A stretch of 64,000 bases of DNA, taken from positions 495,209 through 559,208 of the forward strand of contig NZ_JAADJV010000002.1 of assembly GCF_011684115.1 (NCBI RefSeq), written 5' to 3'. The notes beneath the pieces are model-generated. The model ran no database searches and had not been told where the DNA came from. It saw nothing but the letters and a program-made list of their open reading frames with translations. Source of the stretch: Rahnella aceris. GTDB taxonomy: Bacteria > Pseudomonadota > Gammaproteobacteria > Enterobacterales > Enterobacteriaceae. Within the stretch, counting starts at the first letter, position 1. Every line of letters begins with the position of its first letter. Both the position numbers and the translations under genes were made by a program. Of this stretch, positions 14,465-58,809 are shown in pieces.

Positions 14465-14580
14465 ACTAAATCATGCAAATTGCAGGAAGGCGGCGAACGC
14501 ATGAATCCCGATGAGCTTACTGAAGTAAGCGATTCGGGTGAGTAAGAGCAGCCAACGCGTCGGCAGTTTGAATGGTGACG
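14465..14580 (+). repeat. Dispersed hairpin repeat after yhaK
   Basis: This element begins CTAAATCAT and contains a nested hairpin: CCCGAT paired with ATTCGGG outside and GCTTACT with AGTAAGC inside (about 14505-14540). It then has the AGCAGCCAACGCG segment. I recall very similar elements scattered between genes in Serratia, Yersinia and Rahnella; that is memory, not a search. It lies between yhaK and the rnpB terminator. Confidence 0.6.
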
Positions 14581-14591
14581 GGGAAAAGGCG

Positions 14592-14623
14592 AAAGCCCGC
14601 GTAGTTAACACTACGCGGGCTTT
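14592..14623 (-). terminator. rnpB terminator
   Basis: A perfect 13-bp stem (arms 14592-14604 and 14611-14623) with a 6-nt loop follows the 3' end of the RNase P RNA on the minus strand. Confidence 0.93.
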
Positions 14624-14632
14624 CTGTTGACG

Positions 14633-15009
<377 letters not shown>

Positions 15010-15034
15010 GCGGCGGATAATAGGGTATTACGCC

Positions 15035-15904
15035 CTATTTGTCACCCTCTTGCTCATCAAGCGCGTATTTATACAACGCATTCTTCTTCACACCGTGGAT
15101 TTCGGCGGCCAGCGCGGCCGCTTTTTTGAGCGGCAGTTCTTTTTGCAGCAATGCCAGTGTGCGCAGGGCTTCCGCCGGTAAGGCTTCGGTATCGACCTTA
15201 TGGCCTTCAACGATCAGCACCATTTCACCGCGCCGGCGCGTTTCGACTTCCTGCACCCATGCCAGCAGTTCACCCACCGGCGCACCGTGAATATTTTCCC
15301 AGGTTTTGGTCAGTTCACGCGCCAGTACGACATAACGATCTGGCCCCCAGACTTCGACCATATCCTGCAAACTGTCCAACAGGCGGTGCGTGGATTCATA
15401 GAAAATCAGCGTACGGGGTTCTTCAATCAATGCCTGCAACGTATCTTTACGGGATTTGGTTTTGGCGGGCAGAAACCCTTCGTAACAGAAACGATCAGAG
15501 GGCAAACCGGCGGCACAAAGCGCGGTGATCGCCGCACAGGCACCGGGTAACGGCACCACGCGGATACCGGCTTCACGGCAGCGACGCACAAGGTGATAGC
15601 CAGGATCATTGATCAGCGGCGTACCGGCATCCGAGACCAGCGCTATCGTCTGGCCTGCCTGCAATTTCGCCAGTAAATGCTCAGCTTTCTGCTGTTCATT
15701 ATGATCATGCAGCGGATACATTTTTGCCGTGATCGCGAAATGTTGCAGCAGCAATCCGGTATGGCGGGTATCTTCTGCAGCAATCAAATCTACACTGTTC
15801 AGTACGGCCAGCGCGCGTTGGGTAATATCCCCTAAATTGCCAATTGGCGTCGGTACGATATACAGCGTTGAGGCAGAAATATCTGCTTGATCGTCTTGAT
15901 TCAT
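15035..15904 (-). CDS. rsmI: 16S rRNA C1402 2'-O-methyltransferase
   Basis: The 289-aa product matches E. coli RsmI (286 aa), a tetrapyrrole-methylase-fold enzyme that 2'-O-methylates C1402 in the decoding centre of 16S rRNA using SAM. The family motifs [17 protein letters not shown] (about residues 17-33), AEDTRHTG and [12 protein letters not shown] are all present. It is divergent from lpoA, with a 61-bp shared promoter gap, as in E. coli. Confidence 0.96.
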
Positions 15905-15965
15905 TGTTTCATCCGGATTGCCGATTTAATATTGAGCATCTTAAAAAAACATCACTGGAAACTGA

Positions 15966-18002
15966 ATGCCTTCCTCAATGACCTTTCGTACCCGTTCGGG
16001 ACGTTTACTCCCTGCCATCATCGTGGCCATGCTTCTTGCCAGCTGTTCAGGTCAGGCGCCGCAGGCACCGACAGAAAGTGTCCAGGGTGCAGCGTCCGGC
16101 AGCTCTGACTATTATTTGCAGCAGGCGCAGCAAAGCGGTGATGATAACAAGGCTGACTGGCAATTGCTTGCAGTGCGTGCCCTGATACGCGAAGGCAAAG
16201 CGCCTCAGGCGGCGGAACAGCTGGCTAAAGTGCCGCAAAATCTGACGGCTGCCCAAACCGTCGAACAGCAACTGACCAGTGCAGAAGTGCAGGTTGCGCT
16301 GAAAAATTATCCGGCAGCAGCCACCAGTCTGAGCCAGTTGGATCCCCACGATCTGACCAACGATCAGAAAGCCCGTTATTATCAGGCGCAAATCGATGCC
16401 AGTCAGGGGCGCACCAGCCTTGGCGTGATCCGCGCCTATATCGCGCAGGAGCCGCTGGTACAAGGTCAGCCGCATCAGGACAACATTGACCGCACCTGGA
16501 TGGCGCTGACGCAGATGTCCGCACAGGACGTCAACAGCATCGTGATCAATGCGGATGAAAATACGCTGCAGGGATGGCTGGATTTACTCAGCGTCTGGCA
16601 AAGCAACAAGCAGGATCCTGATTTACTGAAAGCCGGGATTAAAGACTGGCAGCGCCGTTATCCGGTGAATCCGGCAGCGAAAAGCCTGCCGACTCAGCTC
16701 AATAATGTGCTGACTTTCCAGCCTGCTTCAACCGGCAAAATTGCGCTGTTTCTGCCAATGAGCGGCCCGGCACAGGTTTACGGGAATGCCATTCAGCAGG
16801 GTTTTAATGCGGCAATGAGCGGTCAGGTCAGCCAGCCAGCGGCACAAACGGCACCGACCGATCCAAACGCACAATCTCAGACGCCGGCAGACCCGAACGC
16901 AGCCGTCAGTACATCTGCACCGGACGCCAACGCGCAAAATACCGCGTCTCAAACCGATCCTTCCCAGGCTCAGCCTGCCGCAACCCCAGCCGCTGCGCCC
17001 GTGGCCAGCAGCAACGGGCAGGTGAAAGTGTATGATACCAATGGTCAGCCTCTGGCCGCGCTTCTGACGCAGGCTCAGCAGGATGGCGCAACGCTGGTTG
17101 TCGGCCCGCTGCTGAAAGATCAGGTGAACGCACTCGCTTCTGACCAGACGCCTCTGAATGTTTTAGCGCTCAATCAGCCAGAAACTGAGAAAAACAGCCC
17201 GAATATCTGTTACTTTGCGCTCTCGCCGGAAGACGAGGCACAGGATGCTGCGCGCCACATGTGGTCTGAGCAGAAACGTATGCCGCTGTTACTGGTGCCG
17301 CGTGGCAGCTTCGGCGACCGTATCGCGCAGGCTTTTGCTAACGAATGGCAGAAACTGGGCGGGCAAACCGTACTGAAACAAGGTCTCGGTTCCGCCGGTG
17401 AATTGCGTTCTTCTATTGGCAGCGGTATCCGCCTGACCGGTACGCCGGTCACCACCAGTGATGCAGCCGCGCCAGCACAAGCGCAGGGTGTCACAATTGG
17501 TGGCATTACCATCCCGGCGCCGCCGACAGATGCACAGATTACGCAAGGCAGTACCAGTGGCGCAGTGGATTCCGTCTACGTTGTTGCGACACAAAGTGAA
17601 CTGACGCTGATTAAACCGATGCTGGATCTGGCCGTGAATGGCCGCGTGCATCCTTCAGTGTACGCCAGTTCACGCAGCTATCAGGCAGGTGCCGGTCCGG
17701 ATTACCGTCTCGAAATGGAAGGCGTGCAGTTTAGCGATATCCCCTTACTGGCAGGCGGTAACCCTGCGCTGATGCAGCAGGCAGCCGCGAAGTTTGGTAA
17801 CGACTATTCGCTGGTCCGTCTCTATGCGATGGGGATCGATGCCTGGAATCTGGCAAATCATTTCTCCCAGATGCGCACATTGCCTGGCTTCCAGGTTTCC
17901 GGCAGCACCGGAGAATTGAGCGCCAATAGCAATTGCGTGATCCACCGTAAATTGCCATGGCTGCAATACCGTCAGGGTTCGCTGGTGCCAGTTTCTTCTT
18001 AA
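15966..18002 (+). CDS. lpoA: Outer-membrane lipoprotein LpoA, PBP1A activator
   Basis: The 678-aa lipoprotein matches E. coli LpoA (678 aa). A lipobox (LLASC) puts the lipidated Cys at residue 27. Residues ~30-255 form the helical TPR-like N-domain, and residues ~256-678 the periplasmic-binding-like C-domain that contacts PBP1A. Residues ~286-348 are low complexity, rich in Q, A, P and T, a flexible insert also present in E. coli but different in sequence. The ATG at 15966 has GGAAA upstream. It is first in the series lpoA-yraN-diaA-dolP. Confidence 0.95.
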   Translation: MPSSMTFRTRSGRLLPAIIVAMLLASCSGQAPQAPTESVQGAASGSSDYYLQQAQQSGDDNKADWQLLAVRALIREGKAPQAAEQLAKVPQNLTAAQTVEQQLTSAEVQVALKNYPAAATSLSQLDPHDLTNDQKARYYQAQIDASQGRTSLGVIRAYIAQEPLVQGQPHQDNIDRTWMALTQMSAQDVNSIVINADENTLQGWLDLLSVWQSNKQDPDLLKAGIKDWQRRYPVNPAAKSLPTQLNNVLTFQPASTGKIALFLPMSGPAQVYGNAIQQGFNAAMSGQVSQPAAQTAPTDPNAQSQTPADPNAAVSTSAPDANAQNTASQTDPSQAQPAATPAAAPVASSNGQVKVYDTNGQPLAALLTQAQQDGATLVVGPLLKDQVNALASDQTPLNVLALNQPETEKNSPNICYFALSPEDEAQDAARHMWSEQKRMPLLLVPRGSFGDRIAQAFANEWQKLGGQTVLKQGLGSAGELRSSIGSGIRLTGTPVTTSDAAAPAQAQGVTIGGITIPAPPTDAQITQGSTSGAVDSVYVVATQSELTLIKPMLDLAVNGRVHPSVYASSRSYQAGAGPDYRLEMEGVQFSDIPLLAGGNPALMQQAAAKFGNDYSLVRLYAMGIDAWNLANHFSQMRTLPGFQVSGSTGELSANSNCVIHRKLPWLQYRQGSLVPVSS

Positions 18003-47530: not shown

Positions 47531-48964
47531 ATGAAGCAAGGTTTGCAACTCAGACTCAGCCAACAACTGGCAATGACTCCTCAGTTACAACAGGCCATCC
47601 GCTTGTTGCAACTATCCACGCTTGAGCTCCAGCAGGAGATCCAACTCGCGCTGGAGAGCAACCCTCTGTTGGAACAAACCGACCTTCATGAAGAAATCGA
47701 CTCGGTAGAAACCACCGACAGCGAAGGGTTAGACACCCGCGAGGCACTCGAGCAGAAAGACATGCCGGAAGAGTTGCCGCTGGACGCCACCTGGGATGAG
47801 ATTTACACCGCAGGCACGCCGTCAGGCACCGGCAATGATTACAGCGACGATGAGCTACCGATTTACCAGGGCGAAACCACGCAGACACTTCAGGATTACC
47901 TGATGTGGCAGGTCGAGCTGACGCCGTTCTCTGATACCGATGCCGCGATTGCCACGTCAATCGTCGATGCAGTGGATGACACCGGTTACCTGACCGTCTC
48001 CCTTGACGACATTCTTGAAAGCGTCGGTGATGAAAATGTCACCATGGACGAAGTCGAAGCCGTACTTAAGCGCGTTCAGCGTTTTGATCCGGTGGGTGTC
48101 GCCGCCCGTGACCTGCGCGACTGCCTGCTGATCCAGCTTTCTCAATATGCGACTGACACGCCTTTCATCACTGAAGCCCGTCTTATCATCAGCGAACATC
48201 TCGATTTGCTGGCGAACCATGATTTCCGCGCACTTATGCGATCAACCCGGTTAAAAGAAGATACACTGAAAGGAGCGATGCTCCTGATCCAGTCTCTTGA
48301 TCCGCGTCCGGGCCAGTCTATCAACACCGGCGAATCCGAATACGTGATCCCGGATGTGCTGGTGCGTAAAGTGTCAGGTGTCTGGGCGGTAGAACTCAAT
48401 TCCGACAGCATTCCGCGTCTGAAGATTAACCAGCAGTACGCCGCGATGGGGAATTCCGCACGCAGCGACAGCGACGGGCAATTTATCCGCAGCAATCTGC
48501 AGGAAGCCAAGTGGTTAATCAAAAGCCTGGAAAGCCGTAACGACACGCTGTTGAAAGTGACGCGCTGCATCGTTGAGCAGCAGCAGGCGTTCTTTGAACT
48601 GGGTGAAGAATTTATGAAACCTATGGTACTGGCAGATATTGCCAGTGCCGTGGAAATGCACGAATCGACGATTTCACGTGTGACGACGCAGAAGTTCCTG
48701 CACAGCCCGCGTGGCATTTTCGAACTGAAGTATTTCTTCTCCAGCCATGTCAGTACAGACAGCGGTGGCGAGGCATCGTCAACCGCGATCCGGGCGCTGG
48801 TGAAGAAATTAATCGCAGCGGAGAATCCTGTAAAACCGCTCAGTGACAGTAAGTTAGCGACCCTGCTTTCCGATCAGGGAATTATGGTTGCGCGTCGGAC
48901 TGTCGCCAAATACCGAGAGTCTTTGTCCATCCCGCCCTCAAACCAACGTAAACAGTTAGTTTGA
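47531..48964 (+). CDS. rpoN: RNA polymerase sigma-54 factor
   Basis: The 477-aa protein matches E. coli RpoN (477 aa). It has a Q/L-rich region I (1-50), an acidic region II (about 55-115), the core-binding and HTH parts, and the C-terminal RpoN box [11 protein letters not shown]. It directs nitrogen and other enhancer-dependent promoters. A 9-bp stem hairpin (47450-47475) without a T tract lies between lptB and rpoN, so read-through is possible. Confidence 0.97.
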
Positions 48965-48987
48965 CCTCAACAGAGAAGGAAGACATT

Positions 48988-49275
48988 ATGCAGCTCAACA
49001 TTACCGGACATCACATTGAGATCACGGATCCCCTGAGAGAGTTCATCACGTCGAAGCTGGCTAAGCTTGAGCAGTATTTCGACAGGATTAATCAGGTGTA
49101 TGTGGTGTTGAGCGTGGAAAAGGTGCAGAAAGTAGCGGAAGCCACTTTGCATGTGAACGGAGGCGAATTACATGCCACCTCGGAACATCAGGATATGTAC
49201 GCAGCGATTGACGGACTGGTTGATAAACTGGCCCGACAGTTGAATAAACATAAAGACAAACTGAAACAGCACTGA
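48988..49275 (+). CDS. hpf: Hibernation promoting factor HPF
   Basis: The 95-aa short-form HPF equals the E. coli length. It binds the 30S decoding region and helps form 100S ribosome dimers in stationary phase. I chose the ATG at 48988 (MQLNITGHHIEIT) with an AGAAGGA site. It follows rpoN by 23 bp. Confidence 0.96.
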   Translation: MQLNITGHHIEITDPLREFITSKLAKLEQYFDRINQVYVVLSVEKVQKVAEATLHVNGGELHATSEHQDMYAAIDGLVDKLARQLNKHKDKLKQH

Positions 49276-49385
49276 CATTCATGTAGCCAACCCTGTGCTA
49301 CAAACCTTCGGGCATCGGCTTGTGACCTTCGGGAAACGAGCCGATATAGCTTTAAGGGTGAAACAGCGCAAAAGTGAAAGATGAC

Positions 49386-49856
49386 ATGATTAACGATACT
49401 GCAATGCAATTAACGTCGGTGCTTAATGCCGAATGCACCAAAAGCGGCGTTCATTGCGCCAGCAAAAAACGCGCACTGGAAATCATCAGTGAGTTGGCCG
49501 CCAAACAATTAAATTTGTCGCCGCAGGTGATTTTTGACGCCATTTTGACCCGTGAACGTATGGGGAGCACCGGGATCGGTGCCGGGATCGCCATCCCGCA
49601 CGGTAAGCTGGAAGAAGACACTTTACGTGCCGTCGGCGTATTCATTCAGCTTGAACAACCGATTGCTTTTGACGCCATCGATAATCAGCCGGTAGATTTG
49701 CTTTTTGCCTTGCTGGTACCGGCAGATCAATGTAAAACCCATTTACATACATTATCTTTAGTCGCTAAGAAATTAGCTGATAAAACAGTGTGTCGCCGTC
49801 TGCGTGGCGCGCAAAGTGACGAAGAACTGTTCCAGATAATGACTGAAAACGAATAA
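49386..49856 (+). CDS. ptsN: PTS(Ntr) enzyme IIA (PtsN)
   Basis: The 156-aa IIA-fru-type protein matches E. coli PtsN (163 aa) but has a shorter C-terminus. The phosphorylated His72 is in AIPHGKLEED. It regulates potassium transport and other processes according to its phosphorylation by EI(Ntr)-NPr. The ATG at 49386 fits the family start; a GTG four codons upstream is in frame. Confidence 0.95.
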   Translation: MINDTAMQLTSVLNAECTKSGVHCASKKRALEIISELAAKQLNLSPQVIFDAILTRERMGSTGIGAGIAIPHGKLEEDTLRAVGVFIQLEQPIAFDAIDNQPVDLLFALLVPADQCKTHLHTLSLVAKKLADKTVCRRLRGAQSDEELFQIMTENE

Positions 49857-49923
49857 ATTGCTGATTCCCGGTACAGTGCCGGGAAAATGAATTCTGCACA
49901 CTGAATGCCAGGGGAGTGACACC

Positions 49924-50778
49924 ATGGTGCTGATGATTGTCAGCGGCCGTTCCGGTTCCGGGAAGTCGGTTGCCCTACGGGCACTAGAAGACATGGGTTT
50001 TTACTGTGTGGACAACCTGCCGGTGGTGTTATTGCCGCAGCTTGCCCAGACCCTTGTTGAACGTAATACATCAGCGGCCGTCAGCATTGACGTCCGTAAC
50101 ATGCCGGAAACACCGGAAGTTTATGAGTATGCGATGTCACAACTGCCGGAGAGCTTCTCACCGCAGTTGTTATTCCTTGATGCCGACCGCAATACTCTGA
50201 TCCGCCGCTACAGCGACACCCGTCGTCTGCACCCGCTTTCCAGCAAAAATCTGTCCCTCGAAAGTGCCATTGATGAAGAAGCCGATCTGCTCGAACCACT
50301 GCGTTCGTCTGCGGATTTGATCATCGACACCTCCGAAATGTCCGTGCATGAACTGGCAGAAATGCTGCGTACCCGTCTGCTGGGTAAACGCGAGCGCGAA
50401 CTGACGATGGTGTTCGAATCCTTCGGTTTCAAACACGGCATTCCGATTGATGCGGATTATGTTTTCGATGTGCGTTTTCTGCCAAACCCGCACTGGGATC
50501 CGAAACTGCGTCCGATGACAGGCCTTGATAAGCCGGTCGCGGCGTTCCTTGACCGTCATACTGAAGTGCACAACTTTATTTACCAGACCCGCAGCTACCT
50601 CGAACAATGGCTGCCGATGCTGGAAACGAACAACCGCAGCTATCTGACCGTCGCCATTGGCTGTACCGGCGGTAAACACCGTTCGGTCTATATCGCAGAG
50701 CAACTGGCCGACTATTTCCGTTCCCGCGGGAAAAATGTGCAATCCCGCCATCGCACGCTGGAAAAACGCAAATCATGA
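49924..50778 (+). CDS. rapZ: RNase adaptor protein RapZ
   Basis: The 284-aa protein matches E. coli RapZ (284 aa). It binds sRNA GlmZ and delivers it to RNase E, linking glucosamine-6-phosphate levels to GlmS. Walker A GRSGSGKS lies at residues 8-15. It overlaps npr by 4 bp. Confidence 0.96.
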
Positions 50779-51047
50779 CGGTGAAACAAACGGTAGAAAT
50801 CAAAAACCGGTTGGGTATGCATGCCCGCCCGGCAATGAAGTTGTTTGAACTGGTGCAGAGCTTTGAATCAGAAGTGATGCTGCGCAACGACACGGGCATT
50901 GAAGCGGAAGCCAGCAGTGTCATCGCGCTGCTGATGCTCGATTCCCCGAAAGGTCAGAAAATCGAAATCGAAGCCACCGGCCCCGATGAAGAACAGGCAT
51001 TGACGGCAGTGGTAAATCTGATTAATTCAGGTTTTGATGAAGACTGA
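50775..51047 (+). CDS. npr: PTS(Ntr) phosphocarrier NPr
   Basis: The 90-aa HPr-like protein (ptsO) has the active His16 in RLGMHARPA. It carries phosphate from EI(Ntr) to PtsN. A small hairpin (AGCCG/CGGCT near 51066-51084) lies between it and the convergent regulator gene. In E. coli yrbL follows; here the PRD regulator gene does. Confidence 0.96.
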
Positions 51048-51072: not shown

Positions 51073-52992
51073 TTAAATGCGGCTTAAACAGTCGATTGCA
51101 ATGGCCTTGAAACTCTCAAAGTTTTCGCTGCTCAGCAGACGGCTCATTGAGCGTTCCCGCACAAACGTCACGAACAAATCGTAAATCGCCATCGCCTCTT
51201 CATAATCTGCCTTGCTGATTGCCAGCAGGAAAATCACGTGTGCTGTCTCCCCTTCTCCCCACGCAATGCCCTGCGGAGAGAGCAACGTTATCACCACGGT
51301 TTTCTTCGCCAGCAGCCCCAGCGAGTGCGGCAGCGCAATCCCTTCCCCCAGCATGGTCGAGACAATTTCCTCGCGCTCAACCACCGACGGATAAAACGCC
51401 TGATCGACGTAGCCTTCGGCTTCCAGCTGAGAGCACACATGGCGGAATAACTCCGCCTGCGTCATCGGTTCATCGATGATCATGAAGTGTTTTTCGTCGA
51501 AGAATTTTTCCAGCATATAAGGCCGGGTGCGATCAACCAGTACCAGCTTGCCAAGCTGCTCCATCTGGTATTCGGTCGGGAATGGCGACAGCACCACCAC
51601 CGGTTTATTCTTCTCGCTGATGCGGGCGTTGGAGATGATGAAATCTTCGTCGATGTGTTCCAGTTGTTCGTAATCCCGCAACGTCACCACCTGTTTCATC
51701 ACCAGCTGCGGATATTTGCGGCTAATCTGCGCCTGAATCATACGGATGGTCGAATTGCCGGTGTCGCATACCAGCATCACCTGCGGATGTCGCTGATAAC
51801 CGATGTTGTAATGCCGCTCCAGCCCGACGCCGATATGCAGCACAAGAAACCCAATCTCGTTTTCACTCAGGGTGTACGGCGTGTATTTCCCCCAGCTCGA
51901 CACCGCCGCCAGCGTGACGTCATACGCCATCGGGTAATGCTGTTTGATGTTGTTCAGCAGCGGGTTGGGGATATTAATCTGGTATTTCACCCGCGTAATC
52001 ATGGTTTTGATATGCGTCAGCAGATCAGCGCGCAGCTGTTTATCACCTTGTAAATCATAACTATAGTGCGAATTGATATACGACAGGATGTAATCGACCA
52101 GCGATTCGTCATCGTCAGCATTAATGTCCGTTGGCAGGATTTGCTGCACGCGACGCGCGGCGATATTCACCCGCAGATAAGCTTCTTCAGAGGCCGGAAT
52201 TTCCTTGCCCACCAGACTTTTCAGCTCCGCAGCCAGCCGCACAGAAACGTGTTTGACCGCCGGGTCACCGTCTTCAGCATCAAAATCAGTCAGCGGATAA
52301 CCGCCGGCAATGCGTTTAATGGCCACCGCGCAATAGAGAATCAGATATTGTTCACCTTCGTCGGTCAGTTGAATAGAAGACTGCGTCAGAAGCTGATGCA
52401 TAAAGCGCGTCAGCGGCACCAGCGCTTCCGACTCCAGGCTTTCCGCCTTCAGCAGCGGATTGGCCTGTTCTTCGGCATCGAGCTGGAACAACAAGTCGGT
52501 CAGGCAGGCGCGGATTGCCAGCTCCGCACCAAACAGCTTCATGCCATAGCGCGGCTTGGTTTCAATATTCAGATGATAGCGGGCCAGATGCTCCCTTACC
52601 TCAGCCATATCATTTTGCAGGGTTCCCCGGCTGACAAACCATTCATCAGCCAGATCTTCCAGCTTTAATGAAAAAGCTGAGGTCAAAAAGCGGATCAGCA
52701 GCGTCTTCACCCGCTCTGCGGCCGTACGCGGCGTCGGATTCGGTTTACGTTGTGTCGACTGCTGTAACGACGAGAACAGGCTCTGATCATCAACGCGCAG
52801 CTGATACCCGCTGCCACGGTTGTGTACGAAGGTCGCGCCATAGTCCGCGATGATTTCATTAAGCGCAGTGATATCCGCACGGACCGTCCGCGTCGACACC
52901 GACAGGCGTTTTGCCAGTTCATCCTGAGGCAGCGTTTCGGTTTGCAGCGCATCAAACAGTTGCGCCAGACGTTGATTGGGAAATCTCACCAT
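51073..52992 (-). CDS. PRD/EIIB/EIIA-type transcriptional regulator
   Basis: The 639-aa protein is a MtlR/LicR-type multidomain regulator. An N-terminal HTH_11 (about residues 5-65; ELAKRLSVSTRTVRADI) is followed by a second HTH (about 95-150), two PRDs (about 190-290 and 300-400), an EIIB-like domain with Cys409 in VCDTGNST and an EIIA-fru-like domain with His556 in ALPHS. PRD2 keeps its histidines (His327, His386), but the matching places in PRD1 are Tyr220/Cys221 and Asn276, so PRD1 looks unphosphorylatable. It is last in the nine-gene operon, 216 bp after the aldolase gene, and is the likely DNA-binding activator of it. A GGAAGAACA site precedes the ATG. Confidence 0.88.
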   Translation of the reverse strand: MVRFPNQRLAQLFDALQTETLPQDELAKRLSVSTRTVRADITALNEIIADYGATFVHNRGSGYQLRVDDQSLFSSLQQSTQRKPNPTPRTAAERVKTLLIRFLTSAFSLKLEDLADEWFVSRGTLQNDMAEVREHLARYHLNIETKPRYGMKLFGAELAIRACLTDLLFQLDAEEQANPLLKAESLESEALVPLTRFMHQLLTQSSIQLTDEGEQYLILYCAVAIKRIAGGYPLTDFDAEDGDPAVKHVSVRLAAELKSLVGKEIPASEEAYLRVNIAARRVQQILPTDINADDDESLVDYILSYINSHYSYDLQGDKQLRADLLTHIKTMITRVKYQINIPNPLLNNIKQHYPMAYDVTLAAVSSWGKYTPYTLSENEIGFLVLHIGVGLERHYNIGYQRHPQVMLVCDTGNSTIRMIQAQISRKYPQLVMKQVVTLRDYEQLEHIDEDFIISNARISEKNKPVVVLSPFPTEYQMEQLGKLVLVDRTRPYMLEKFFDEKHFMIIDEPMTQAELFRHVCSQLEAEGYVDQAFYPSVVEREEIVSTMLGEGIALPHSLGLLAKKTVVITLLSPQGIAWGEGETAHVIFLLAISKADYEEAMAIYDLFVTFVRERSMSRLLSSENFESFKAIAIDCLSRI

Positions 52993-53208
52993 TGTTCTTC
53001 CATATTATTCCGGCTACGGCGCGATCACCCTTTACGACGAACTGCCGACCGCCACAGAGTCATCGATAAACGCGGTTTGCCGTTTTCGGCAAATACCTTG
53101 AATCAGGTGATGTTATCGCTTCGTTGATTGATTGCGTAAATATATTTGCCATCCGGTAACAACATCAGTGTGCCCGGACGGCTTACCGCGCAGGAAAGGT
53201 CAGAACCT

Positions 53209-53949
53209 TCAGCCCACCAGCTTTTTGACGCTGGCCAGCAGGGTTTTCACATCGTCAGGACGGGTGTTACCGGTGGCGCTGTCGATAATCGAGCTGTAGA
53301 TATGCGGGATGATTTTAGTGACGCCCGCCGCCAGCGCGATTTCCATAATCGGCTCGAAGTTTTCTAAATCGATACCGCCGGTCGGTTCCAGCCAGAAATC
53401 CTGTTCCGCACAGGCACGGGCCACGGCAGCGAATTCATCACGGGTTTTCAGGCCACCCATCGGGAAATATTTCACCGAGCTGCCGCCCATATCTTTCAGC
53501 AGCGCAATGGCGGTTTCCACCGGCACGATGGCGTCCGCAGAAGCAGAACTCAGCGGTCCGGTATTGATCTTCACAAAGCCGGGTTTACCGGTGGGTGAAA
53601 TCAGACCGTTGACCACGCTGTCGTTTTGCCCAAGCATTCCACGGCTGGTACCGACGCCGGTAAAGACCTGATTGACGTGCTGCGGCTGAACCTGCGCTGA
53701 AATCTGGCTGACCATCAGAGACTGACGCGGATCGCCCGCGCCTAAACCGACAGACAACGCGTTTTCAATCAATGCGGCATACTCTTTCATGTCCGCCACC
53801 GCACTCGCGACGTCTGGATAATTTTTGGAAAGCACACCGACCAGTACATGACCTTCTGCCGCTTCATAGATATCACGGGCATTGTCTTTCGAGCCCGCCA
53901 GCACATTCAGGCACACGCGGTCACGATAGAAATTTGGGGTCAGCTTCAT
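53209..53949 (-). CDS. dgaF: KDGP aldolase-family protein (DgaF type)
   Basis: The 246-aa protein belongs to the DgaF-type 2-keto-3-deoxy-6-phosphogluconate aldolase family. It should split KDGP to pyruvate and glyceraldehyde-3-phosphate through a Schiff base; the likely lysine is Lys160 in SSVKYFPMGG. The family was named from the Salmonella D-glucosaminate pathway. It overlaps dgaE by 4 bp. The actual substrate here is inferred from the neighbours. Confidence 0.85.
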   Translation of the reverse strand: MKLTPNFYRDRVCLNVLAGSKDNARDIYEAAEGHVLVGVLSKNYPDVASAVADMKEYAALIENALSVGLGAGDPRQSLMVSQISAQVQPQHVNQVFTGVGTSRGMLGQNDSVVNGLISPTGKPGFVKINTGPLSSASADAIVPVETAIALLKDMGGSSVKYFPMGGLKTRDEFAAVARACAEQDFWLEPTGGIDLENFEPIMEIALAAGVTKIIPHIYSSIIDSATGNTRPDDVKTLLASVKKLVG

Positions 53950-55073
53950 GCTTTGTCTCCGCTGAAAAGTTGTTTAAAACGTTGTGCGACGATGGTGAGC
54001 TGCGGCGGCGTCACGCTGCGCACATCGACTTCGATCTTGCCTTCGTTGGCGCGGTAGCCACGGAAATAAATCGCGATATCGCCGTTTTTCATGGCGTCCA
54101 CAATGGCTTTGGTTTTCCAGCCCAGTACCGCTTCATCGAAAGTGATTTCCGTACGGGCGATATCACGTCCGGCGCTGTCCCAGACCACGCGTCCGGTAAC
54201 ACCGCTGATTTCATTCAGGCTGGCGATAAATGGCGTCATCTTGTCGACCATTTCCTGCCCGGTGGTTTTCGGCAAGGTGAGATAGCTTTCGATAGCCTGC
54301 GTCAGGCCAAGAATGCCTTCTTTGCCGACTTTCATCGCACGACCAATCCCGCCCGATTGCAGTTTTACCCATTCGACATACTGTTTTTTGCCGAGCACCA
54401 GCCCGCTGGTCGGCCCTTCGATGGCCTTCGCGCCACTGTAAATCACCAGATCCGCACCCATCTCGTAATAACAGGTCAGATCTTCTTCCGCGGCGGCATC
54501 GACGATCAGCGGCACATTGTGCTTACGCGCCACTTCAGCGGCTTCCGCAACCGACAAAATGCTTTTCTGCACTGAGTGGTGCGATTTTATGTACATGATT
54601 GCAGCGGTACGCGGGGTGATGCAGGCCGCGAGTTGTGCGGCAGAACATTCGTTGGCATAACCGGCTTCTACCACCTTGCCACCGCCCATCGTCACCATCG
54701 TCGCGACCGGTGCACCGAAATTCACGTTATGGCCTTTTGGCAGAACGATATCGTGCGGGATTTCCAGTGGCGCGGCGTGCAGGTTTTCCAGCAGCCAGGC
54801 GTCATCTTTGACGATCACCGCCGCCACAGATTGCGCGATCCCGGCAGAAGCGCAGGAAACCACCACCGCGTTTTCGACGTTTAGCAGTTTCGCGATGTAA
54901 GCGCCGGTTTTGTTCACCAGATCTTTCATCTCAAAGTAATGATTCAGACCGGTATTCACCACTGCTGCGACTTCTTCACGCGGCGTGGAAACGCCCAGCG
55001 CTGTCATACGACCGGAAGCATTAATGACTTGTTTTAACTGGTACTTTTCATACAGCGATTGTTCAGAAGACAT
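53946..55073 (-). CDS. dgaE: PLP-dependent ammonia-lyase (DgaE type)
   Basis: The 375-aa SelA-like fold-type I PLP enzyme matches DgaE, D-glucosaminate-6-phosphate ammonia-lyase. It should form KDGP and ammonia. The PLP lysine is Lys216 in YSGAKAIEGP, and the ring-contacting Asp192 is in LIVDAAAEED. No selenocysteine genes are nearby, so a SelA role is unlikely. It overlaps the amidohydrolase gene by 11 bp and dgaF by 4 bp, so the three enzymes are made together. Confidence 0.85.
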   Translation of the reverse strand: MSSEQSLYEKYQLKQVINASGRMTALGVSTPREEVAAVVNTGLNHYFEMKDLVNKTGAYIAKLLNVENAVVVSCASAGIAQSVAAVIVKDDAWLLENLHAAPLEIPHDIVLPKGHNVNFGAPVATMVTMGGGKVVEAGYANECSAAQLAACITPRTAAIMYIKSHHSVQKSILSVAEAAEVARKHNVPLIVDAAAEEDLTCYYEMGADLVIYSGAKAIEGPTSGLVLGKKQYVEWVKLQSGGIGRAMKVGKEGILGLTQAIESYLTLPKTTGQEMVDKMTPFIASLNEISGVTGRVVWDSAGRDIARTEITFDEAVLGWKTKAIVDAMKNGDIAIYFRGYRANEGKIEVDVRSVTPPQLTIVAQRFKQLFSGDKA

Positions 55074-56196
55074 GAGCAGATTTCCCTTCTTCGGTTAACA
55101 GAGTGACGCCCGCGACCACAGCGGCCAGAGGCACCAGCAAACTTTCGCCTTTCACGGACTGTCCTTCGGAATCGATAAACACCTGCGGCGCCTGACGGAG
55201 TTCGAACAGGGTCAGATCGGCGTCGGCACCGATTTGCAGACGACCTTTGGCAGGAAGACGCAGCGCATCAGCGGCATGCGATGTAACGCAATCAATCACC
55301 TGCGGCAATGTCAGGCCGACGCTGAAGAATTTCGACATCACCGTCGCCAGGCTGTGCACCGGCCCGTTGAGGCGATTGCGGCAATAAATATCGGAACTGA
55401 TGGTGTGCGGCAAAATGCCCTGCTTAATGGCCAGCTCTGCCACTTCAAAGCTGAAACTCGCGGTGCCGTGACCGACATCCAGCAGCACGCCACGGCTGAG
55501 CGCCCGCTTAACGGAATCACGCAGCACGCCTTCCGGCGAGAGAATACGGTTCGGCTTGCCGTTATAGCAGTGGGTAATGATGTCGCCCGAGGTCAGTAAA
55601 TCTGCGATTTCGTCGAGGTTCGGCGGGTTATTACCGATATGCACCATCAGGGGCAGGTCATCGTTTTCCTGCTGAATTTCTTTGGCGCGCACCAGTGGCT
55701 TAATGCCGTTCTGGCCGACCACACTGCTGCTCATGCGCGCTTTGATGCCAATGATAAAACCGGGATTTCGCGCGATGGCGTCACGCACGCCGACCTTGTC
55801 GATCTGGGTCATATCCGCCAGTTCGTTCTGCGTGACAATGCCGGTGCGGGCGATATTGAGAAACGCGTAGACGTTGGTTTTCGCCTCACGGGTAATCTGA
55901 TAGAAATCGTCGACATCATTCGCGCCGGTACTGCCCGCATCGGCCACGGTGGTGACACCGCAGGCCACACCAATCAGATCGGCTTCGTCATGATAAATCG
56001 GCGATTTGGGGTAACAGTGAACATGGGAGTCGATCCATCCCGCGCTGGCGTAAACCTTGCCCTGAAGATCGAGAGTCTGGCGGGCGGTGGCACCGCAGGG
56101 CAACGTGCCAATGGCGGCGAATTTGCCGTCGCGGATTGCAATATCAGTCAGGCTGCCGTCTGCGCGTAATGCCTGCCGGATGATTAAGTCATACAT
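55063..56196 (-). CDS. Amidohydrolase/deacetylase-family metal enzyme
   Basis: The 377-aa protein is a dihydroorotase-like amidohydrolase with a complete binuclear metal set: His58-x-His60 (DSHVH), a probably carboxylated Lys152 (GIKARMSS), His186 (MVHIGN), His209 (ITHCYNG) and Asp269 (SSDIYC). It probably removes an acyl group from an N-acyl amino sugar acid before DgaE acts; this is inference from position. It appears to be the putative amidohydrolase family named for EF_0837/AHA_3915 (recalled name). The ATG at 56196 has a GGAGAAC site. Confidence 0.82.
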   Translation of the reverse strand: MYDLIIRQALRADGSLTDIAIRDGKFAAIGTLPCGATARQTLDLQGKVYASAGWIDSHVHCYPKSPIYHDEADLIGVACGVTTVADAGSTGANDVDDFYQITREAKTNVYAFLNIARTGIVTQNELADMTQIDKVGVRDAIARNPGFIIGIKARMSSSVVGQNGIKPLVRAKEIQQENDDLPLMVHIGNNPPNLDEIADLLTSGDIITHCYNGKPNRILSPEGVLRDSVKRALSRGVLLDVGHGTASFSFEVAELAIKQGILPHTISSDIYCRNRLNGPVHSLATVMSKFFSVGLTLPQVIDCVTSHAADALRLPAKGRLQIGADADLTLFELRQAPQVFIDSEGQSVKGESLLVPLAAVVAGVTLLTEEGKSAHVF

Positions 56197-56216
56197 ACGA
56201 CGTTCTCCATAATCTC

Positions 56217-56242
56217 GGGCGTCAGGAGTGTTCCTGACGCCC
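56217..56242. other. Intercistronic hairpin between transport and enzyme genes
   Basis: A perfect 11-bp stem (56217-56227 with 56232-56242) and 4-nt loop lie in the 81-bp gap between the DUF4310 gene and the amidohydrolase gene. There is no T tract, so it may set mRNA stability or segmental expression. Confidence 0.55.
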
Positions 56243-56277
56243 GTTTACTGCAGCTTTTCTTCTGTACTACTGCGTTC

Positions 56278-56925
56278 TTACAGTGAAACCGGGAAGACAG
56301 CGCCCAGCACCATTGCGCCGAGAATGGCACCACCGGTAATCGGTTTTTGCCACAGATAGAAACCCAGTGCGCCAATCAGCGAGCCCAGACCGATAGGAAT
56401 CGATGCCGCCATCGCTGACAGGATAATCAACGGCCCGAGGAAGCGGCCGGAGGCATTACCCGCACCCATCATCACGTCAGCGCCGTAGGTAGAATTGCTC
56501 TGATTGATGGTGAATTTACGTGCCAGAATGATGATGTAACCGACGGCTAACCCGAGGATCAGGCCGGTTACCAGCGAGGCCGCGAAGTTCGCCACCGGGA
56601 AGATAATCCCCGCGCCGAGCAACAGTGCCGGGACGCCCAGGCCGATACCGGTCTGGATCGCACCACCGATATCGAGAATACCGACCAGCGAACCTTCGAT
56701 GATGCGGGCAAACAGAAAGCTGGCACCGAAGGCCGCCACTGCGCCGTACACGCCGGTATCCATGCCGGAACGCAGCATTGATACAAACGCCACTTCGTTA
56801 AACGCACCGATGCCGTACAGGTAATACATGTGTGTCCCGGCGAAAACACCGGAAGACAGCAGTCCGACAAAAATCGGGAACGACCACTCGGCGTACCAGA
56901 AACCACGTTTGGCTTGTTCTTCCAT
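56278..56925 (-). CDS. DUF4310 membrane protein
   Basis: The 215-aa polytopic protein has several hydrophobic helices (about residues 14-34, 58-75, 93-135, 160-215) and a conserved-looking loop GADVMMGAGNASGRFLGPL. I recognise it as DUF4310, always found with DUF4311, DUF4312 and SFCGS proteins; no function is established. It is probably a subunit of an unusual transporter. An ATG two codons upstream (56931) is also possible, but AGGA is better spaced for 56925. Confidence 0.78.
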   Translation of the reverse strand: MEEQAKRGFWYAEWSFPIFVGLLSSGVFAGTHMYYLYGIGAFNEVAFVSMLRSGMDTGVYGAVAAFGASFLFARIIEGSLVGILDIGGAIQTGIGLGVPALLLGAGIIFPVANFAASLVTGLILGLAVGYIIILARKFTINQSNSTYGADVMMGAGNASGRFLGPLIILSAMAASIPIGLGSLIGALGFYLWQKPITGGAILGAMVLGAVFPVSL

Positions 56926-56938
56926 TGTCATGTTCCTC

Positions 56939-57715
56939 TTACTTGCCGCTGAGTGAATTGTGAATGCCGTTCAGCCATGTCGGGACGTCCAGCATGAATG
57001 ACTGCAACAGTTTGACGTCGAAGCCACGGAAGAAACCGCTGAGGACGAACAGCGCGATAATCGCCGCCATCATCACTTTGGTGACGTGGTTCCAGCCGCT
57101 TTCTTCGACGCCTTTACCGATCAGGATACCCAGCACCAGACCCGGTACGGCGTTACCCATGATCATCTGCGCCAGACCACCAAAAATAGTGGCCCAGAAA
57201 CCGGAACGACGTCCTGCATCGATCGCCGCCAGCCAGAAAATCACCGGCATCACGGTGTTCACCAACAGGTTGGCCGCAGGCACCAGCACTTTGATTGCCG
57301 TGACCTGCAACGCCGCAGGCACCGCAGACGCAGTAGTGTTGAGGAAGGCGACCACAATCATGCCGATGATGCCGCCTGCAATCGCCATCTTGCGCGGGTC
57401 ATGCATGGTTTCAGCCACATTGCGGTTTTTAAACATCAGGGCAGCGGTTGCCCAGTGGGGAATGATGCGGTGGTCAACGTCCTGGGTGAAAGAACCTGCC
57501 GCCACGGAAGAAGCCCAGGCGTTAAAGAAGAAGCCCAGACCAAATGAGAAATGCGAAGCCGGATCGCCTTCACAGGAGTTTAATTCCCCAAGCGTACGAA
57601 AAGCCCCCATTCCTTGCACGGTGGGTGCATGGAACATACGTGCGGCCCCCGCACCTACGCCCACGCCAACCAGTCCGCCGATAATAAGCGACTTAAATAA
57701 AATAATTAAAAACAT
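56939..57715 (-). CDS. DUF4311 membrane protein
   Basis: The 258-aa polytopic protein begins with a Gly-rich helix (residues 3-26) and has helices at about 110-130, 138-165 and 178-235. A long polar section follows the first helix and contains MGAFRTLGELNSCEGDPASH and FTQDVDHRIIPHW, with conserved-looking Cys, Asp and His residues that could line a substrate site. I recognise it as DUF4311. The gene starts 32 bp after DUF4312 and ends just before DUF4310, suggesting a two-subunit membrane unit. An AAGGA site precedes the ATG. Confidence 0.8.
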   Translation of the reverse strand: MFLIILFKSLIIGGLVGVGVGAGAARMFHAPTVQGMGAFRTLGELNSCEGDPASHFSFGLGFFFNAWASSVAAGSFTQDVDHRIIPHWATAALMFKNRNVAETMHDPRKMAIAGGIIGMIVVAFLNTTASAVPAALQVTAIKVLVPAANLLVNTVMPVIFWLAAIDAGRRSGFWATIFGGLAQMIMGNAVPGLVLGILIGKGVEESGWNHVTKVMMAAIIALFVLSGFFRGFDVKLLQSFMLDVPTWLNGIHNSLSGK

Positions 57716-57747
57716 CAGTATATCCTTGTCATTTATAGCTAACGTTT

Positions 57748-58047
57748 TTATTTCGTGACAAAAACTACCTGTTCCGTATTAATAACAGTCAGGTTGACGG
57801 TAATGTCTAACGCCACGTAATAACTCTTTCTTTCCCTGGCCAGAAAAAAGAACAGAAACTTTTCTCTTTTGACTGACTCTTCTGCCTTTATTATCCTGAC
57901 GTCCTGCGGTTCTATACGCAGTAAGACATTATTGGCAGACGATTTGAGAACCGTTCTCTGAACCTGACTCAGTGCGGAAGAAAAGGCGGCAGCCTTATTT
58001 TCGCCCTTTCCTTCAACCCGAACTGTCGTGGTTAATTGTTGCTTCAT
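57748..58047 (-). CDS. DUF4312 small soluble protein
   Basis: The 99-aa protein has no signal peptide or membrane helix, and contains no His or Cys, so it is not itself a PTS-type phosphocarrier. Its alternating beta-strand and helix pattern suggests a small ferredoxin-like or dodecin-like fold (inference). It is DUF4312 by sequence and company. Its ATG overlaps the SFCGS stop by one base (TAATG). Confidence 0.75.
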   Translation of the reverse strand: MKQQLTTTVRVEGKGENKAAAFSSALSQVQRTVLKSSANNVLLRIEPQDVRIIKAEESVKREKFLFFFLARERKSYYVALDITVNLTVINTEQVVFVTK

Positions 58048-58415
58048 TACGCCTGACCATACTTCTTGTTATAAGCTTCAACCAGACGCTGACCCAGTTC
58101 TTCTTTATCCATAAATCCGAACCCTAATACTAAACAGCCTTCGTTAATTGCCGTGACACCTTCATCCACTGAACGCATCCCGTACTTAGCTTTATATCCG
58201 TATTTGTTTTGAGCGGTAATCGCACCGGCACCGCCACTGCCGCAGAAAGAAATACCAAAGGTCGCACCTTCTGCTTTCATCACGTCACCGAGTTTCATAT
58301 CTGCTGCCATACCCGGGACAACGATGGCTTTCCCGCCAGCCGCTTCCACGCCGGCTGCCACTTTCTGGCCTTTTCCTAAACGGTCACCGATCACCACTAA
58401 TACTTGTCCCATCAT
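58047..58415 (-). CDS. Glycine-rich SFCGS-family protein
   Basis: The 122-aa soluble protein is named for SFCGSGGAGA (residues 56-65), a Cys followed by a Gly/Ser-rich loop at the end of a beta-strand, as in the phosphocysteine loop of PTS EIIB domains. The N-terminus (QVLVVIGDRLGKGQKVAAGV) reads as strand, loop, helix. Cys58 is a candidate phospho-acceptor (inference). It comes second in the operon. Confidence 0.78.
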   Translation of the reverse strand: MMGQVLVVIGDRLGKGQKVAAGVEAAGGKAIVVPGMAADMKLGDVMKAEGATFGISFCGSGGAGAITAQNKYGYKAKYGMRSVDEGVTAINEGCLVLGFGFMDKEELGQRLVEAYNKKYGQA

Positions 58416-58458
58416 TCACATCTCCGGATAATTAATTCGTTAAATTTTCAGTAAAAGG

Positions 58459-58809
58459 TTATTTAGGTTCGTTATCTCTTGCGACTTCTAAATGTACCGA
58501 GAGTAAATACGCTTCCTCAATCGGTAAGTTTCCAAACCAGCTGACCACGTCCTCTGCCATTTGCATGGACTCAGCAGAGATTTCATCAAATAAATCTTTT
58601 TCGACTTCAGGCAACGGCTCGCCGGTAATTGAGCGTAATACCATGGCTTTAACGTGTGACGTTAACATCTGCAACTGAACATCGGTGGTATAGATATTCT
58701 TCGCACTTTGCATCGCCTGAATATCCTTTAATACTTGCTCTGTTATCGCCGCAGCATCTTTCAATTCAATCCGCCCGGTCCCATTCACAGATGCGCTTGC
58801 GTTATTCAC
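58459..58809 (-). CDS. Stand-alone PRD-domain protein
   Basis: The 116-aa protein is one PTS-regulation domain without a DNA- or RNA-binding part. Both PRD histidines are present, His52 (LTSHVKAM) and His106 (LSVHLEVA). It may be a phosphorylation-dependent partner of the operon regulator or of the transporter. It is the first gene of the operon. Confidence 0.78.
   Translation of the reverse strand: MNNASASVNGTGRIELKDAAAITEQVLKDIQAMQSAKNIYTTDVQLQMLTSHVKAMVLRSITGEPLPEVEKDLFDEISAESMQMAEDVVSWFGNLPIEEAYLLSVHLEVARDNEPK

Follow-up and report, generated by a model that had tools for sequence, protein, structure and literature searches.

How could an acid derived from an amino sugar acquire a 6-phosphate, when the operon for its breakdown has no kinase gene linked to it? 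This question is raised by a nine-gene operon of Rahnella aceris, carried on the minus strand between positions 51073 and 58809 of a 64,000-nucleotide stretch of contig NZ_JAADJV010000002.1 (positions 495,209 to 559,208), hereafter the window. A preliminary description, made from the sequence alone, had listed nine leftward genes in the order of transcription PRD protein, SFCGS protein, DUF4312, DUF4311, DUF4310, amidohydrolase, DgaE-type lyase, DgaF-type aldolase and regulator, several of them overlapping; all these frames were recovered at the coordinates below, with overlaps of 11, 4 and 1 bases in three adjacent gene pairs, and Pfam and NCBIfam searches confirmed the names. We propose, with a slightly better than even chance of being right, that the operon encodes uptake powered by the phosphotransferase system (PTS), with phosphorylation, of an N-acylated 2-amino-2-deoxy-aldonate, together with the enzymes for its catabolism. 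The substrate is best described in these general terms, the leading candidate and most likely identity being N-acetyl-D-glucosaminate (GlcNAc1A) or a close relative.

58459-58809, minus: PRD protein of the EF_0829 family, small and stand-alone, a candidate for phosphorylation on histidine; TIGR03582, 127.8 bits against a cut-off of 69.35
58047-58415, minus: SFCGS protein (PF14272, 203 bits), candidate phosphocysteine carrier or sugar-phosphate binder
57748-58047, minus: DUF4312 small protein, probably soluble; PF14189, 109.9 bits
56939-57715, minus: DUF4311 membrane protein, candidate half of a transport channel; PF14188, 396.5 bits
56278-56931, minus: DUF4310 membrane protein, candidate half of a transport channel; PF14187, 347.3 bits
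55063-56196, minus: EF_0837-family amidohydrolase, proposed to N-deacylate a 2-amino-aldonate (phosphate); TIGR03583, 551.6 bits against a cut-off of 432.15
53946-55073, minus: DgaE-family pyridoxal phosphate-dependent ammonia-lyase; TIGR01437, 581.5 bits against a cut-off of 385.3
53209-53949, minus: DgaF-type 2-dehydro-3-deoxy-phosphogluconate aldolase; NF047796, 389.6 bits against a cut-off of 300; also TIGR03581
53018-53211, minus: decayed lactonase remnant, including the junction shared with the DgaF end; by blastn to locus L003
51073-52992, minus: regulator with HTH, Mga, two PRDs, an EIIB-like motif and EIIA; domains from Pfam, the EIIB-like label from its motif

The nine genes form a real and strongly conserved unit, as judged by the conservation of gene set, gene order and co-occurrence. 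After a contig scan with a DUF4311 alignment, the best 80 of 540 confirmed loci, mostly from Enterobacterales, were retained, and the sample therefore consists of near kin. The full set was found in 78 of these 80 loci and the order was identical in all 80; in the two incomplete loci (L029 and L067), the missing genes fall at a contig end. Among 295 genomes of the host family, SFCGS was detected in 141, DgaF in 141 (140 above the cut-off) and both in 140, the two lists having been matched by eye. Among the control genomes, the search for SFCGS gave a match in Lactococcus lactis only, under the cut-off. The labels EF_0829 to EF_0839 and AHA_3910 to AHA_3917, which the preliminary description had given, proved to be correct, since TIGR03582, TIGR03577 (SFCGS), TIGR03578 (DUF4312), TIGR03580 (DUF4311), TIGR03579 (DUF4310), TIGR03583 and TIGR03581 all scored over their cut-offs; the cluster so labelled is this operon, and the models call most of its members conserved hypothetical. 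The same operon is present in Salmonella as STM4440-STM4448, and records with these families were also found in Klebsiella, Aeromonas and Enterococcus.

The enzymes give the first indication of the substrate. The nearest relatives of the amidohydrolase in PDB are 8wzy and 2ics, and its residues H58, H60, K152, H186, H209 and D269, which we take to be the usual metal-site set of the superfamily, are kept in at least 97% of 89 sequences. The DgaE-type protein is related to the structures 7lc0 and 7lce of D-glucosaminate-6-phosphate lyase (DGL), and scored 350.9 bits with the DGL equivalog model, under the cut-off of 600; its substrate may therefore differ in detail. In the docked DGL model, as described in the available portion of PMC9529869, the 6-phosphate lies near Arg301, Arg332 and Arg346 and the carboxylate near Arg226. 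The equivalents of the three phosphate arginines (R307, R338 and R352) and of the carboxylate arginine (R245) were found in 85 of 85 sequences, together with K216 and H166, and H165 in 83 of 85. The same residues are kept in all 13 proteins compared across uptake types, except for the replacement of H165 by Ala in Bartonella. As controls, two Rhizobium homologues (one beside an ABC transporter, one unannotated) carry Cys at the R352 position, and R307 is absent from two SelA proteins, the row of a third being unaligned. The DgaE-type protein is 38-39% identical to two enterobacterial DgaE proteins of mannose-PTS systems and 51% identical to DgaE of L. paracasei, where a mannose-PTS dga operon without amidohydrolase encodes a DgaE that is in turn 64-66% identical to the DgaE of the operons with DUF genes in Enterococcus faecalis and contig L169. 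The DgaF-type protein, with the PDB relatives 3m0z, 3lm7 and 3nzr, is assigned by NF047796 to the DgaF-type aldolases of 2-keto-3-deoxy-6-phosphogluconate (KDPG). The pathway suggested in the preliminary description, leading from an N-acyl amino-aldonate through deacylation, ammonia elimination and aldol cleavage, fits these families and conserved residues; the order of the steps and the substrate are what we infer from them.

In order to trace the origin of the 6-phosphate, uptake genes and kinases around DgaE/DgaF operons were compared by tblastn with a reference set, using a threshold of 60 bits for PfkB kinases. Within 10 kb on either side of the block of PRD, SFCGS and DUF genes (hereafter the DUF module), where covered (the downstream part of L067 lay outside), no PfkB kinase was detected at any of the 80 loci. 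Neither a PfkB kinase nor an amidohydrolase was found at 13 DgaE/DgaF loci with mannose-type PTS, a set made up of 12 second copies (L127-L138) chosen among the matches listed and one L. paracasei plasmid; mannose-type PTS is present in all 12 chosen copies, and the 12 genomes concerned carry both the DUF operon and the mannose-PTS system. A PfkB kinase was present in four of five operons in which MupG (with EIIC where seen) or GntP is in view and the DUF module is not, namely those of Clostridioides difficile (L092), Niallia (L139), Priestia (L094), in which the amidohydrolase, DgaE and DgaF genes accompany a gluconate:H+ symporter and the kinase, and contig L168, a kinase-linked EIIC/MupG operon. 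In the E. faecalis copy of the cluster (L088), the DUF module is joined by EIIC, a MupG-family protein and a kinase; L169, a Bacillota-like contig ending 340 bases past DgaF, shows the DUF operon but neither EIIC nor MupG. This distribution fits a simple rule: where the aldonate enters unphosphorylated, a kinase gene is linked, and where uptake phosphorylates it, none is. With a disaccharide PTS, the phosphate would go to the other sugar, and MupG would then split the product. The linked kinases score best with models of the 2-keto-3-deoxygluconate (KDG) kinase type, all under cut-off, and because of this resemblance they might act after DgaE. In the window genome no close homologue of such a linked kinase was found, the best match showing 30% identity over part of the sequence.

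A connection to the PTS was found on two Bartonella plasmids (L089 and L090), where ptsP follows the operon directly after the regulator. The ptsP product of L089 is an HPr-EI fusion (PF00381, PF05524, PF00391 and PF02896), that of L090 has the same length, and no other EII gene is annotated in the plasmid stretches read. On its domain content, the neighbour of this alphaproteobacterial-plasmid operon appears to be a source of phosphoryl groups running from phosphoenolpyruvate (PEP) to HPr. Within the operon, the conserved residues that are candidates for carrying phosphate are Cys58 of SFCGS, His52 and His106 of the PRD protein, and His556 and Cys409 of the regulator. His556, in the EIIA domain, is kept in 82 of 83 regulators and Cys409, in a motif that we take to be EIIB-like, in 81 of 83; H327 and H386 are also conserved. 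The earlier statement that the operon encodes no kinase and no standard EIIA, EIIB or EIIC holds for a linked kinase, but the regulator does contain an EIIA domain (PF00359) and the conserved cysteine of the EIIB-like motif.

The AlphaFold2 model of SFCGS (pLDDT, the predicted local distance difference score, 90.9) has its best fold matches among RpiB/LacAB proteins, and hhalign against RpiB gave an E-value of 1.1e-6; the Pfam search gave no match to PF02502 at E 0.01. The predicted fold of SFCGS is thus that of the RpiB/LacAB sugar-phosphate isomerases, an assignment that is new in this analysis. Its Cys58, invariant in 85 of 85 sequences, aligns with Cys66 of E. coli RpiB, the catalytic cysteine. 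The ring-opening histidine of RpiB (His99 in E. coli) is not kept in SFCGS, where this position is Asn91 and variable. His52 and His106 of the PRD protein are conserved in at least 97% of 90 sequences. For DUF4312, a crude scan gave no candidates for membrane segments, and the residues conserved in 97% or more of 84 sequences include neither His nor Cys. In the same kind of scan, DUF4310 and DUF4311 showed six hydrophobic segments each, with no Pfam match beyond their own DUF families; together with their place in the operon, this hydrophobicity makes the two candidates for a channel. The idea that the five uncharacterised genes constitute a phosphorylating transporter is strengthened, as a proposal, by the indirect support of the Bartonella HPr-EI fusion, the kinase pattern and the phosphate arginines of DgaE, but not all five need be parts of a transporter, because PRD is a PTS-type histidine protein and SFCGS is RpiB-like.

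In the mechanism that we propose, DUF4310 and DUF4311 would form the membrane channel, and the phosphoryl group of PEP would be relayed by EI and HPr to a histidine carrier, which could be either the stand-alone PRD protein or the regulator's EIIA domain, and from there to SFCGS, probably on Cys58, and to O6 of the incoming acid. The amidohydrolase would then remove the acyl group, the DgaE-type enzyme would eliminate ammonia to yield KDPG, and DgaF would cleave this into pyruvate and glyceraldehyde-3-phosphate. The lactonase, where present, is probably exported and would open the aldonolactone before uptake, and the PRD/EIIA regulator would sense the flow of phosphoryl groups. The more specific claim, that the operon represents a new class of PTS-type permease built of non-homologous parts, with PRD in the place of EIIA, RpiB-fold SFCGS as EIIB with phosphocysteine at Cys58, and DUF4310/DUF4311 as the channel, we regard as unlikely.

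Evidence of another kind comes from the lactonase. A lactonase gene lies between DgaF and the regulator in 39 of the 80 loci, its product being 59-70% identical to a Klebsiella lactonase of family PF10282, and it lends independent support to an aldonate substrate. The N-terminus is signal-peptide-like in 11 of 12 sequences inspected and in the Klebsiella protein, which suggests an extracytoplasmic aldonolactone, although with automatically set starts only 13 of 40 fitted a crude pattern. In the window only a remnant is left, with 127 of 155 identical positions to L003 by blastn and a 35-base exact stretch; the middle of the gene is largely gone. Other Rahnella carry fuller copies, and the sole other PF10282 match in the window genome is a 335-residue frame elsewhere.

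An origin of the substrate from chitin was considered, because GlcNAc1A lactones are products of chitin-active lytic polysaccharide monooxygenases (LPMOs) and a lactonase is present at 39 of the 80 loci. Co-occurrence did not support it: LPMO family PF03067 is present in 61 of 295 genomes of the host family, and SFCGS in 36 of these 61 against 105 of the 234 without LPMO (odds ratio 1.8, Fisher p 0.06, counted by eye and uncorrected for relatedness), and no PF03067 match was found in the window genome. Chitin thus remains one possible source only.

Several observations weigh against phosphorylating uptake. The arginine triad is shared beyond the known DGLs: all three residues also occur in PDB entry 8t7j, whose only description is that of a putative selenocysteine synthase. 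The kinase comparison opposes 80 loci of near kin to few kinase-bearing operons; it includes L167, with MupG, amidohydrolase, DgaE and DgaF genes but no adjacent kinase, in an unverified record that starts at MupG with its 5' part cut; and the lack of a linked kinase is compatible with one encoded at an unlinked site. The Bartonella linkage is probably one event, because the plasmids are closely related, and its HPr-EI could serve the regulator only. The E. faecalis regulator has no EIIA match in Pfam, and therefore the EIIA domain cannot be the general donor. We know of no protein of RpiB fold that carries phosphocysteine. A model of DUF4311 (pLDDT 72.5, moderate) gave no credible match to solved folds, and hhalign of DUF4310 and DUF4311 with a few EIIC sequences gave no match. 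With this lack of likeness to EIIC, the pair might be an ordinary, non-phosphorylating secondary transporter, the phosphate being added by a kinase encoded elsewhere on the chromosome or to KDG after DgaE. The Priestia operon, with its symporter and kinase, and the best scores of the linked kinases, under cut-off, with KDG-kinase-type models agree with such a scheme, and the characterised GlcNAc1A route works in this way according to the available text of PMC9537276. We nevertheless judge it doubtful, since linked PfkB kinases were found at 0 of 80 DUF loci against four of five MupG/GntP operons, the phosphate arginines of DgaE are kept, and the HPr-EI fusion and the constant partners PRD and SFCGS would be left unexplained.

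The module might also be regulatory in part, with SFCGS binding a sugar phosphate at its RpiB-like site and, together with PRD, tuning the regulator, which would then be the only target of the Bartonella HPr-EI; DUF4312 would belong to the same group. PRD domains are classic sites of regulatory phosphorylation, the regulator itself keeps H327 and H386, and SFCGS retains the cysteine loop of RpiB and not its ring-opening histidine. The module, however, stands as one block between regulator and enzymes, also in E. faecalis with a different, first-placed regulator, and the source of the 6-phosphate would remain unexplained; we consider a regulatory role of these three proteins improbable. A substrate other than GlcNAc1A, such as another epimer, another N-acyl derivative or an acid of non-chitin origin, would leave the chemistry as proposed, and overlaps with PTS-powered uptake of an N-acylated aldonate. 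This is possible, with a chance clearly below even: the DgaE-type score under the lyase equivalog cut-off, the 38-39% and 51% identities to DgaE of enterobacterial and L. paracasei mannose-PTS systems, the absence of LPMO from the window genome and the weak LPMO co-occurrence (p 0.06) favour it, while DgaF passing the 2-dehydro-3-deoxy-phosphogluconate aldolase model, and the 64-66% identity of the L. paracasei mannose-PTS DgaE to the DUF-operon DgaE of E. faecalis and L169, argue for the substrate first named.

Among known systems, Salmonella DgaABCD-DgaE-DgaF, with a mannose-family PTS, shares the DgaE and DgaF families, the arginine triad and the catalytic residues with the operon described here. 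In the portion of PMC9529869 available, the D-glucosaminate pathway of Salmonella has phosphorylating uptake, and as at this operon no linked kinase was found. In contrast to Salmonella Dga, this operon lacks mannose-type EIIA-D genes, contains an amidohydrolase, and has a PRD/EIIA regulator in the place of the sigma-54-type activator. The Ong route for GlcNAc1A of Pseudoalteromonas, in the available text of PMC9537276, employs the symporter OngIT, a deacetylase, a deaminase and then a KDG kinase, and deacetylates first, without initial phosphorylation (also PMC12017989, likewise in part). The likeness lies in the probable substrate and its fate, deacetylation, deamination and KDG-6-phosphate (accessible parts of PMC9537276 and PMC12017989). 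A sodium solute symporter, D-aminoacylase-type OngB, fold-type III OngC and KdgK are, in the portions available, described for Ong, whereas the present operon has a SelA/DgaE-type lyase and no linked kinase, its enzymes belonging to other named families and being set apart by description. In two Aeromonas strains, OngB and OngC homologues are distant or absent, according to the available part of PMC11653859. For the members of the operon itself, the accessible portions of the literature table STM4441-2 as unknown and crp-regulated (PMC11000858), name EF0838 as potentially critical and EF0839 as a possible contributor to fitness (PMC7701990), and report from a urine screen a fragment with a putative EF0839 or EF2975 promoter (PMC2912369); these portions assign no role to a DUF protein.

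The E. coli yhfSTUWXYZ operon (L096, 4936-12345, no annotated function) may hold a cousin of such a permease, with the small PRD protein YhfY, the small cysteine-loop protein YhfU and YhfT, which we take to be a membrane protein. The profile comparisons are weak (PRD with YhfY, E 3.6e-4, probability 37%; YhfU with RpiB, E 1.4e-3, probability 18%), and were not significant for SFCGS with YhfU (E 0.12) or for DUF4310/DUF4311 with YhfT.

The surroundings of the operon and some of its variants were also recorded. In the window, 26 bases separate the end of the operon from that of the convergent NPr gene, which lies within a plus-strand group (48961-51047) that we take from its translations to be hpf-ptsN-rapZ-npr. 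Over the 80 loci, npr and rapZ were found at 32, and cybC (68) and pmbA (73) are the commoner neighbours. The Bartonella plasmids L089 and L090 are 56 kb in size and come from bat isolates, the operon and ptsP adjoin type VI secretion genes, and on L090 the genes for replication and partition appear in two copies, in inverted order. Small apolar-rich open reading frames lie between EIIC and MupG in E. faecalis (L088, 14959-15258, 99 residues, no Pfam match) and Niallia (L139, 3436-3714, 93 residues). A gap of more than 350 bases within the operon is unexplained at two loci (L033 and L040); in L040 (Yersinia aldovae), 14532-16274 holds a 452-residue opposite-strand reading frame at the lactonase position, with a lactonase trace beside it, which looks like an insertion. 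In the operon of L142 (Aeromonas caviae pKAM479_3), the amidohydrolase and DgaE were not found, nor were most of DUF4310 and the DgaF start, reflecting either a deletion or an assembly fault. L167, L168, L169 and L170 are bacterial operons in records filed under phages and look like host DNA, L170 being a Salmonella contig.

DUF4310, DUF4311, DUF4312 and SFCGS are families carried by about half of the host-family genomes sampled (SFCGS in 141 of 295), and the comparison leads to two sharp questions, whether uptake depends on EI and HPr and whether Cys58 of SFCGS is a phosphate carrier. If both prove true, the PTS would include a class based on a fold not expected there, and a phosphorylation-first catabolic route would exist for oxidised amino sugars, the one route found in the literature being free of initial phosphorylation in the available texts of PMC9537276 and PMC12017989. 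For the bacteria that carry it, the operon would probably supply both carbon and nitrogen from an oxidised amino sugar.

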